From Gemmatimonadales bacterium (GTDB taxonomy: Bacteria > Gemmatimonadota > Gemmatimonadetes > Gemmatimonadales > GWC2-71-9), in NCBI GenBank assembly GCA_025937755.1, contig JAICQR010000008.1, positions 1 through 38,895 on the forward strand: DNA of 38,895 bases, in the 5' to 3' direction. Positions 8,667 through 38,805 of the stretch are shown here, in pieces; position 1 is the first letter of the stretch; each line of letters opens with the position of its first letter. The notes beneath the pieces are model-generated. The model worked only from the letters and a program-made list of their open reading frames with translations, was not told the DNA's origin and did not search any database. Both the position numbers and the translations under genes were made by a program.

Positions 8667-8728
8667 GGCCGTCACCTCCAGCGTCGGGTGTATCTGAACC
8701 TGAAGCCGGATGGCGGGTCTGTCAAACG

Positions 8729-8768
8729 AAGGCGGTAAGGCGGTAAGGCGGTAAGGCGGTACGGCGGT
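8729..8768 (+). repeat. octamer array, 5 x AAGGCGGT (last ACGGCGGT)
   Basis: Direct reading of tandem octamers. Confidence 0.95.
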
Positions 8769-8874
8769 GCCTCGGGCCGCGAGAGCCGATGTCTCCTGGA
8801 GGCGGCGTGCGGGCAAGCGGAGCGCAGACCCGCCGAGCCGCCGGAAGGAGACTCGGCGGGAGCGGCCGCAAGGC
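8769..8874. repeat. long imperfect palindrome / multi-stem hairpin element
   Basis: Nested complementary blocks GCC/GGC, GGCCGC/GCGGCC, GCCGA/TCGGC, GTCTCCT/AGGAGAC, GGCGGC/GCCGCC, GCGGG/CCCGC in colinear order (about 32 bp of pairing). Confidence 0.85.
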
Positions 8875-8901
8875 GGTAGGGCGGTAGGGCGGTAAGGCGG
8901 T
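8870..8901 (+). repeat. octamer array, 4 x A(A/G)GGCGGT
   Basis: Direct reading; same octamer as 8729-8768. Confidence 0.95.
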
Positions 8902-8905
8902 AACG

Positions 8906-10792
8906 CTATCGGTAGCCCGCCGCCTGCAGCTGAAACAGATCCGCATACAACCCGCCGCGGGCCACCAGCTCCTCATGCGTCCCGTCTTCGATCAGTTCGC
9001 CGGCGCGAAGCACCAGGATCCGGTCGGCCATGCGCACCGTGCTGAACCGGTGCGAGATCAGCAGCGCCATCTTTCCTTTCGTCAGTTCCGAGAACCTGAG
9101 AAACACCTCATACTCGGCGCGGGCGTCGAGCGCCGCGGTCGGCTCGTCCAGCACCAGCAGCTGGGCTTCTCTCAAGTACGCCCGCGCCAGCGCCACTTTC
9201 TGCCACTCGCCGCCCGAGAGATCGGCGCCGCCTTCGAAGCGCCGGCCCAGCATCCGCTCGTACCCGCCCACCCGCTCCGCCACCGAATCCGCCAGGCTCT
9301 GCTCCGCGGCCTCCTCGATCGCCGCCTGGTCTTCGGCCTGCTCGATGTCTCCCACCGCGATGTTCTCGCGCAGCAGGAAGTCGTAGCGCACGAAGTCCTG
9401 GAAGATCACGCCCGCGTTGGCGCGCAGGCTTTCGATGTCGTACTCGCGCAGGTCCGCGCCGTCGAGCAGGATCCTTCCTTCGGTCGGGTCATAGAGCCGC
9501 ACCAGCAGCTTGGCCAGCGTGGTCTTGCCGGCGCCGTTCTCCCCCACCAGCGCCAGCCGCTCACCGGGACGCAGCGTGAATGAGAGGTCCTTCACCGCCC
9601 ACCGCTCGGAGTTCTGGTACTTGAAGCCCACCTTCTCGAACACGAAGCCCTGGCGAATGGGCTGCGGCACCGGCAAGGGATTGGCCGGCGGCTGCATCCG
9701 CGGCTGCAGCTCGAAAAAGCCGAAGAGATCGTCGAGATAGAGGCTCTGCTCGTAGACCTGCGCCAGCGACATCAGTACCTGCTGCAGCAGGTCGCGCCCC
9801 TGCCGGAAGCTTGCCGCGAGGAAGGTCAGGGTACCGATGGTGATCACCCCCGCGGGCGACTCCCAGCGGATCACCGCGAGATAGATGATCCAGGCGTACG
9901 CCGCGTAATAGCCCAGCGTCCCGATTGAGTTGAGCGCCACCGACACCACGCCGCGCCGCACCGACAGCTTGCGATTGGCTTCGTAGAACTCCCACGACAG
10001 CCGGTCGTAGCGCCCGACGATGAAGTCGGACAGCCCGAACAGTTTTAGCTCCTTGGCCGAGATGTCGCTCGCGCCGATGTAGCGGAGGTAGTCGAGCTGG
10101 CGCCGCTCGGGCGTCCACGAGAAGAGCAGCGAGTAGCCCAGCGAGGCGAAATGGGTTTCGCCCAGGAAGGACGGCAGCACCGCCACCGCCAGCAGCACCA
10201 GCAGCCAGGGCACGTACACCGCGACCGCCACCGTGATGGTGATCAGGGTGATCATGCTCTGCAGCGTGGAGAGCAGCAACGAGAACAGGCTCAGCCGGCC
10301 GATGGTCTGCCGGCGGGCGCGTTCGAGGCGGTCGTACACCTCGGAGTTCTCCAGCTGCTCCAGGTCCAGGGCCGCGGCGTGGCGCATCAGCCGGACGCTG
10401 GTGTCGTTGGCAAACCGGTCGCCCAGCAGGCTCTCGAGCAGGCCGCCGGCCCGGCTCAGCACCGTACCGACCAGTGCGATTCCCAGCTCGGTGCCTAGCA
10501 GGATCGCGAGTCGGCGCCAGTCGGGGTCTCCCGCCGACTCCGCCACTGATGCCACGACTTCATCGATGATCAGCTTGCCGATCCAGAGCAGTCCCAGCGG
10601 AACCAGCGCGCCCAGGATCCGGACCAGGATGACGCCCACGGCGTAGCGAGGCTGGGTCCGCCAGACCAGCCCAAGCAGCCGGGGCAGGTGCCGCATGGCC
10701 CGGAAGCGCTCACCCCAGGTCTTGGGGCGATCTTCCTCCCGGAAGGGGCGCCGTCCCCGACCCCCTCCCGGCATCCCGCCGGGTGCGGTCAC
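8906..10792 (-). CDS. ABC transporter, fused permease and ATP-binding protein
   Basis: GENGAGKTTLAKLL Walker A, LSGGEWQKVALARAYL signature, LLVLDEPTAALD Walker B, N-terminal TM region. Confidence 0.9.
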   Translation of the reverse strand: MTAPGGMPGGGRGRRPFREEDRPKTWGERFRAMRHLPRLLGLVWRTQPRYAVGVILVRILGALVPLGLLWIGKLIIDEVVASVAESAGDPDWRRLAILLGTELGIALVGTVLSRAGGLLESLLGDRFANDTSVRLMRHAAALDLEQLENSEVYDRLERARRQTIGRLSLFSLLLSTLQSMITLITITVAVAVYVPWLLVLLAVAVLPSFLGETHFASLGYSLLFSWTPERRQLDYLRYIGASDISAKELKLFGLSDFIVGRYDRLSWEFYEANRKLSVRRGVVSVALNSIGTLGYYAAYAWIIYLAVIRWESPAGVITIGTLTFLAASFRQGRDLLQQVLMSLAQVYEQSLYLDDLFGFFELQPRMQPPANPLPVPQPIRQGFVFEKVGFKYQNSERWAVKDLSFTLRPGERLALVGENGAGKTTLAKLLVRLYDPTEGRILLDGADLREYDIESLRANAGVIFQDFVRYDFLLRENIAVGDIEQAEDQAAIEEAAEQSLADSVAERVGGYERMLGRRFEGGADLSGGEWQKVALARAYLREAQLLVLDEPTAALDARAEYEVFLRFSELTKGKMALLISHRFSTVRMADRILVLRAGELIEDGTHEELVARGGLYADLFQLQAAGYR

Positions 10793-25659: not shown

Positions 25660-25694
25660 GAAGAGAGACTTCTGACTTCTCACTTCTCACTTCC
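25652..25694. terminator. inverted repeat GGAAGTGAGAAG / CTTCTCACTTCC at convergent gene ends
   Basis: 12/12 complementary arms, left arm overlaps stop codon of the L,D-transpeptidase gene. Confidence 0.5.
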
Positions 25695-25737
25695 CACTTC
25701 CCACTTCCCACTTCCCACTCCCCACTCCCCACTCACC
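25668..25737 (-). repeat. heptamer array, 10 units (ACTTCCC family; GGGAAGT on minus strand)
   Basis: ACTTCTG, ACTTCTC x2, ACTTCCC x4, ACTCCCC x2, ACTCACC, uninterrupted. Confidence 0.97.
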
Positions 25738-29225: not shown

Positions 29226-29261
29226 CGGGACTCGGGGCGGGTGCGTGGTTAGCTTGAAAGT

Positions 29262-29338
29262 GGGAAGTGGGAAGTGGGCAGTGGGAAGTGGGAAGTGGGA
29301 AGTGGGAAGTGGGAAGTGGGAAGTGGGCAGTGGGAAGT
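29262..29338 (+). repeat. heptamer array, 11 units of GGGAAGT (units 3 and 10 GGGCAGT)
   Basis: Directly read, uninterrupted. Confidence 0.98.
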
Positions 29339-29364
29339 GGAAGGATGAACGGAGCAACAGCTGA

Positions 29365-37007: not shown

Positions 37008-37016
37008 GGGGTAAGT

Positions 37017-37037
37017 GGGAAGTGGGAAGTGGGAAGT
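37017..37037 (+). repeat. heptamer array, 3 units GGGAAGT plus flanking degenerate units
   Basis: Begins about 10 bp after the DUF4112 stop codon. Confidence 0.95.
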
Positions 37038-37109
37038 GGGGGCCGCCGAGCCGCCGGGCGATGGTGTTAGATTACAGGGACGCATACAGGTCCCTTTCAG
37101 CGAGTTGCC

Positions 37110-37750: not shown

Positions 37751-38805
37751 GCCATTCCGGTTCGTTCGCGAGCGACAATACCGCCGGCGCCCACCCGGAC
37801 GTGCTGGCCGCGATGGCGCGGGTCAACACCGGACACGCACCCGCCTACGGCTACGACGAGCACACCGAGCGCACCCGCCTGCTGCTGCGGCGCGCCCTGG
37901 GTGAATCGGCGCAGCCGTTCTTCGTCTTCGGCGGCACCGGCGCCAACGTCACCGCACTCGATGCCGTGCTGCTTCCGCAGGACTGCATCATCACCGCAGC
38001 CACAGCGCACATCCAGGTGGATGAGTGCGGCGCACCCGAGCGGCACATCGGATGCAAGCTCTTGCCGGTCGAAACCCCCGATGGCAAGCTGACCCCGGCG
38101 CTGGTCGGACCCCACATCAAGGGCGTCGGCTTCGAGCACCATGCACAGCCGCGGGTAATCTCGATCTCCCAGAGCACCGAGTACGGTACCGTCTACACGC
38201 CCGAGGAGGTCGAGGCGTTGAGCGAGTTCGCCCACAGCAGGCGATTGCTGCTGCATGTGGACGGCGCCCGGATCGCCAATGCCGCTGCCTCGCTGAACGT
38301 GCCGCTCAAGGCCATCACCAGTGATGCAGGCATCGATCTCCTGTCGCTTGGCATCACCAAGAATGGCGCGGTAGGTGCGGAGGCGGTGGTCTTCTTCCGG
38401 GAAGAACCGGCCAAGCGGTTCAAGTACGTGCGGAAGCAGGGCATGCAACTCCCCTCCAAGATGCGGTTCGTGGCGGCCCAGTTCGAGGCGCTGTTCACCG
38501 ACGATCTCTGGCGCCGCAATGCCGCCCACGCCAACGCCATGGCCCGGCGGCTGGCCGAAGGCGTTCGGGGTGCTCCGGGAGTCACCATCACCCAGCAGGT
38601 CGAAGCCAATGCCGTCTTCGCGACGCTGCCGAAGAACCGGATCGCTCCGCTGCAGGAGAAGTTCTTCTTCTATGTGTGGGATGAGGCGACCAGCGAAGTG
38701 CGGTGGATGACGAGCTGGGATACGAGCCCCGAGGAAGTCGATGCTTTTGTCGCTGAAGTGGGAAGTGGGAAGTGGGGGGGGGGGGGGGGGGGGGGGGGGA
38801 ATTAA
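37747..38805 (+). CDS. low-specificity L-threonine aldolase / beta-eliminating lyase family; C-terminus runs into heptamer repeat and poly-G
   Basis: SDNTAGAHPDVLAAM, LLHVDGARIANAAASL, DLLSLGITKNGAVGAEAVVFF. Confidence 0.85.
   Translation: MSHSGSFASDNTAGAHPDVLAAMARVNTGHAPAYGYDEHTERTRLLLRRALGESAQPFFVFGGTGANVTALDAVLLPQDCIITAATAHIQVDECGAPERHIGCKLLPVETPDGKLTPALVGPHIKGVGFEHHAQPRVISISQSTEYGTVYTPEEVEALSEFAHSRRLLLHVDGARIANAAASLNVPLKAITSDAGIDLLSLGITKNGAVGAEAVVFFREEPAKRFKYVRKQGMQLPSKMRFVAAQFEALFTDDLWRRNAAHANAMARRLAEGVRGAPGVTITQQVEANAVFATLPKNRIAPLQEKFFFYVWDEATSEVRWMTSWDTSPEEVDAFVAEVGSGKWGGGGGGGGN
38760..38773 (+). repeat. heptamer array, 2 units GGGAAGT, running into poly-G
   Basis: Directly read. Confidence 0.9.

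Follow-up and report, generated by a model that had tools for sequence, protein, structure and literature searches.

Introduction

REPINs are doublets of REP sequences that form hairpins (Bertels and Rainey 2011, PMC3116915). In the REP of E. coli, a mismatch in the stem is required for the activity of TnpAREP (PMC8266576). Direct repeats of short units have also been described between bacterial genes, such as the intergenic heptamer TAACTGA in Beggiatoaceae (PMC4679880). Here, we describe a locus of a Gemmatimonadales bacterium at which an imperfect hairpin, at about 8775-8868 of a 38,895-nt stretch of DNA (the whole stretch analysed, referred to below as the window), lies between two octamer arrays that run in the same direction.

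The hairpin belongs to a repeat that resembles REPINs (PMC3116915) in having two inverted conserved ends, a less conserved spacer and a long hairpin with compensatory changes, and in being extragenic, dispersed, non-autonomous and lineage-specific. It differs from REPINs in having no GTAG or other tag at its foot, longer arms, two tandem-G.A motifs, a fixed polarity with respect to the octamer arrays and no RAYT seen beside a copy in the 80% complete assembly; there are about 16 copies as opposed to the hundreds of REPINs, a low copy number for REPs. With REP/TnpAREP (PMC8266576) and the subterminal hairpins of IS200-IS605, the repeat shares an imperfect, strand-specific hairpin whose stem contains conserved mismatches or an extrahelical base. 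However, REPs are 20-50 nt long with a GTAG guide, whereas the repeat described here is 67-130 nt long and no guide was found. The attC sites of integrons (PMC2727003) are comparable in length, in the folded single strand with its central unpaired spacer and extrahelical base, and in the variable terminal structure, but the present repeat is without R boxes, is not in cassettes and does not lie beside intI. The octamer arrays, for their part, are similar to the Beggiatoaceae heptamers and the cyanobacterial STRR as short intergenic tandem units whose forward units carry stop codons in three frames (TAA or TAG in each frame of the octamer). They differ in the 8-nt unit, in that oppositely oriented pairs always face inward, and in their association with a hairpin repeat.

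The hairpin is, in our view, most probably a REPIN/MITE-type miniature mobile element, and not an RNA gene in its own right. To the more specific reading, in which a REPIN-like, non-autonomous mobile repeat restricted to this lineage moves as a folded single strand, we give a probability of roughly one half.

Results

A metagenome-assembled genome (MAG) of 226 contigs contains the window as its contig C118; this MAG is 80% complete, and its contigs often break at octamer arrays. No 16S rRNA was found in it, and a search with the ABC protein gave distant relatives only. The locus contains the following features:

8729-8768, plus strand: left octamer array of five units, AAGGCGGT four times and then ACGGCGGT, pointing toward the hairpin
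8777-8865, plus strand (the strand with the G.A loops): repeat unit of subfamily A, covariance-model match of 78 bits
8777-8806, plus strand: conserved left arm, from alignment A1
8781-8782, plus strand: left GA of the outer tandem G.A motif, partner of 8860-8861
8790, plus strand: T that is extrahelical in subfamily A and has an A as its partner in subfamily B
8798-8800, plus strand: left side of the inner GNA/GNA internal loop, 16 of 16 copies
8807-8836, plus strand: variable apical hairpin, differing in length and sequence among copies
8837-8865, plus strand: conserved right arm, pairing with the left arm according to the alignment and the pair counts
8843-8845, plus strand: right side of the inner GNA/GNA internal loop, 16 of 16 copies
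8860-8861, plus strand: right GA of the outer tandem G.A motif, from the alignment
8870-8901, plus strand: right octamer array of four units, AAGGCGGT AGGGCGGT AGGGCGGT AAGGCGGT, in the same direction as the left array

An earlier note on this DNA had described two octamer arrays, of five and four units, bracketing a long imperfect palindrome, and both are found where it placed them. Exact AAGGCGGT occurs nine times in the window against 1.1 expected, and the right array ends 4 nt from the stop codon (8906-8908) of the ABC gene, which is on the minus strand. Short tandem arrays of a second type, composed of the heptamers ACTTCCC/ACTTCTC and AAGTGGG, are present at 25668-25733, 29258-29340 and 37013-37040 of the window. 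Near the contig end, a run of 26 G at 38774-38799 could be a sequencing artefact.

Folding of the locus is better than that of dinucleotide shuffles on both strands, with z values of -3.3 (plus) and -5.2 (minus) for 8761-8872, and of -4.0 (plus) and -5.8 (minus) for 8725-8874. The earlier note had read six helices here. Five of them (GGCCGC/GCGGCC, GCCGA/TCGGC, GTCTCCT/AGGAGAC, GGCGGC/GCCGCC and GCGGG/CCCGC) are present in the minimum free energy structure, along with the symmetric GGA/GGA internal loop that it had pointed out, one bulged T in the GCCGA/TCGGC helix and an additional apical helix of 3 bp. The outermost GCC/GGC helix, on the other hand, falls outside the repeat, since it is built from the AAGGC of the array and is seen in the minus-strand fold only.

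Comparison of the 173-nt stretch with the whole MAG gave strong matches elsewhere that carry the same two arms. Pattern and covariance-model searches together identified at least 16 full copies of 67-130 nt in the MAG; two further copies are truncated where a contig ends, at C120:4-23 and from C94:8482 onward. The copies fall into subfamily A, with arms GCGAGCGCCGATGTCTCCTGGAGGCGGCGT ... GCCGAGCCGCCGGAAGGAGACTCGGCGCGAGC, and subfamily B, with arms GCGAGCCCCGCTGCCTCCCGCAGGCGGCGTGG ... GGCCTCAGGCGCCGGAGGGAGGCAGCGGGGCGAGC. The core of the window copy and a copy at an unrelated place on contig C107 share 97.7% identity over 86 nt. In alignment A1 of the copies, 95.3% of the pair cells are paired, and 7 of 23 pairs are altered on both sides (22 cells), as compared to 0-3 pairs in slid controls; these represent few independent events of covariation, because the copies are paralogues of one genome and the changes are mostly those of subfamily A against subfamily B. 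The inner internal loop is GNA/GNA in every one of the 16 copies. The outer loop is a tandem GA/GA in 12 copies and the Watson-Crick combination GA/TC or TC/GA in the other four. In subfamily B a single T pairs with A, and in subfamily A this T is extrahelical. The apical part varies freely in both length and sequence. All 16 copies fold better than their shuffles. The earlier note had expected a spurious element to be without other copies, to lack covariation in orthologues and to fold no better than shuffled sequence. Other copies are present in the MAG, double changes at seven pairs are found among the copies of this one genome and the folding excess holds throughout. Its proposal of a REP-like unit is supported in the sense of a dispersed hairpin repeat.

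The copies are located at unrelated extragenic sites, usually right after a stop codon and mostly within about 60 nt of one, next to ordinary and unrelated genes that include queA/tgt, HSP20, TerC, prfC, maf, Nudix and VIT. One copy is upstream of a gene, beside a divergent gene of the ArsR type (L130). Another, on contig C197, takes up codons 464-506 of 526 in the 3' end of an ada-alkA ORF, and the reading frame continues through it; this looks like an insertion. With gene calls from a simple codon-usage scorer, the GA strand is about equally often in sense (roughly three to four copies) and in antisense (four copies) with respect to co-directional genes. The flanks of different copies have nothing in common except octamers and a single 41-nt match between two copies. 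No consistent target-site duplication was found at the feet of the copies, the longest common words being the GCGAG ends of the element itself. A palindrome, ACGGCCAACGGGGGTGCTGCC ... GGCAGCACCCCCGTTGGCCGT, is located about 27 nt before two of the copies (L053 near 1450 on the reverse strand, and the start of L003).

The left flank can be read in 17 copies, and 10 of these have an array directly at the 5' foot of the GA strand. Arrays on the right side are seen in two copies, that of the window and one whose left flank is cut by a contig end, and seven copies have no array at all. The arrays that adjoin copies are all in the same direction (12/12), reading ARGGCGGT along the GA strand, which would occur by chance with a probability of about 0.0005 (two-sided, with the arrays taken as independent). 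Of 60-nt stretches drawn at random from the window, 1.4% reached a two-unit score of 12. The arrays at the 5' foot with their fixed polarity agree with the suggestion of the earlier note that a structured element was inserted at an octamer array. Array ends as a general feature of the element, as the same note had offered, are not borne out: two-sided direct arrays exist in the window copy only. We also considered a general rule by which an array points to a hairpin and rejected it, as away from the repeat the downstream sequence folds no better than the upstream sequence (n=46, p=0.86).

Several further observations were made on the octamer arrays. Arrays of opposite orientation that are less than 300 nt apart face inward (ARGGCGGT ... 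ACCGCCYT) in 15 of 15 pairs, with none facing outward; eight pairs are in the genome of the window (among them L018:2819-2953, L019, L020, L028, L029, L038 and L042) and seven in its relatives (L215, L223, L224, L226, L234, L239 and L241). A third hairpin family, AGAACGGGGATCC ... GGATCCCCGTTTC, is located between inward-facing arrays at L018:2875-2929 and L029:990-1044, and in the relative's locus L224, near 1000-1050, the hairpin GTCATTGCGAGGGAGTGAAGCCACTTCGTGGCTTCGCAATGACT is likewise bracketed by inward-facing arrays. The arrays often start -2 to +6 nt from the upstream stop codon (e.g. L019:1015, L021:962 and L033:993).

Among the genomes searched, the hairpin repeat was found in this one only. 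Covariance-model searches, to which stricter filters were applied, covered 102 other family members, with 41 genera in all, as well as about 50 additional genomes of the order, and gave no match. The exact core has only chance matches in coding sequence in 150 relatives, a search of genome contigs other than those of the window's own genome with the gapped pattern found nothing, and distant blastn against plasmid and phage records gave no match. The octamer arrays are distributed far more widely, in 22 of 121 genomes and 16 of 61 genera, and in the relatives they bracket unrelated sequence. The arrays are older and wider than the hairpin repeat.

The MAG contains IS200-like Y1 transposase genes, one intact and single-copy and one truncated, and neither lies beside a copy of the repeat in this 80% complete assembly. 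At the same completeness, no transposase adjoins any of the copies, and pattern matches of the left arm revealed no autonomous partner. A single-copy IS200-like transposase gene is at L088:1441-1866, with a perfect palindrome of 30 nt, GAGCGCCCCACACTATAGTGTGGGGCGCTC, after it at about 1895-1925. An integron integrase, IntI, is encoded at L246:9796-10824; the next ORF (to 11392) is bounded by the inverted heptamers ATTAGGT/ACCTAAT and is perhaps an in-line cassette.

Discussion

The structural features of the repeat could also be accounted for by a functional hairpin at the 3' end of genes or in intergenic RNA, acting as a terminator, an mRNA stabiliser or a regulatory RNA and having spread through its usefulness to the host. 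The proximity of most copies to a stop codon, the very stable folding and the compensatory changes are in line with such a role, and GA motifs would be stable in RNA. However, sense and antisense copies are about equal in number, and this lack of a gene-orientation bias is evidence against a cis-regulatory RNA. There is no T-run after either foot of the copies and no intrinsic terminator in the region of the window, and the search of Rfam 15 gave no match at the gathering score, with chance matches below threshold only. The copy beside the ArsR-type gene, the copy inside an ORF and the absence of the repeat from all other genera searched also speak against it. We regard an RNA function as rather unlikely, and the structured ncRNA that the earlier note had put forward as one option is not upheld. 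A MITE of the conventional type, a reduced relic of an insertion sequence with inverted ends and a DDE transposase, would have short, dispersed, extragenic copies with inverted arms of about 30 nt, as observed here. On the other hand, the lack of a consistent target-site duplication is unfavourable to this origin, and no full-length element with these ends was recovered by left-arm pattern matches in the 80% complete MAG. The variable interior and the conserved G.A mismatches within the arms are also unlike simple terminal inverted repeats, and this origin is unlikely in our judgement.

The architecture of attC sites (PMC2727003) is matched in length, spacer, extrahelical T and variable tip, and the genome has a true IntI (TIGR02249, 424.5 bits, cut-off 265) that could act on a folded single strand. 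Nevertheless, no RYYYAAC/GTTRRRY pair of R boxes is found in the element loci, the feet included, there is no repeat copy on the examined part of the intI contig, and the copies are single dispersed sites between ordinary genes rather than cassette arrays. An attC identity is rejected on the missing R boxes, and an attC-like site recombined by IntI is highly improbable. The array and the hairpin could instead be one mobile unit, with the array lost from the array-free copies, as might be suggested by the array at the left foot of 10 of 17 copies and the single polarity of all adjoining arrays. Since hairpin-free arrays are present in the window's genome and in 15 other genera, and since close subfamily A copies differ in the presence of an array, oriented insertion beside existing arrays is likelier, and we regard such a joint unit as very unlikely.

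For the REPIN-like mobile repeat moved as a folded single strand, the following mechanism is proposed. The strand carrying the GA motifs would fold into the hairpin and move as a single strand, and a single-strand transposase of the HUH/Y1 type, as in IS200/IS605 and RAYT, would act in trans and recognise the mismatches. While the dispersal and the structure of the repeat are shown by the results above, we infer this route and this enzyme type from the kept mismatches and bulge, the lack of a target duplication and, as precedents, E. coli REP and REPINs. For a single-strand mechanism, the missing target duplication is neutral. The repeat may then insert with a fixed orientation beside AAGGCGGT arrays, which would serve as harmless intergenic landing sites, and any effects on neighbouring genes would be secondary. 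GTAG is present at the hairpin foot in only 1 of 16 copies on either strand, which is about the chance level, and other tags (CGTC, GGAG) reach two copies at most; as the GTAG tag is absent, the repeat is not assigned to the REPs or REPINs themselves. A more far-reaching proposal, which we put forward as a doubtful one, is that the repeat represents a novel class of mobile single-strand hairpins, recognised via paired tandem-G.A motifs with no GTAG guide, and targeted with polarity to octamer arrays as safe landing sites throughout the family. If true, there would be a hairpin mobile repeat beyond the GTAG/RAYT systems, whose target rule is insertion at octamer arrays in a set orientation. It would also join two kinds of bacterial intergenic repeats that are usually studied apart, the short tandem arrays and the palindromic elements.
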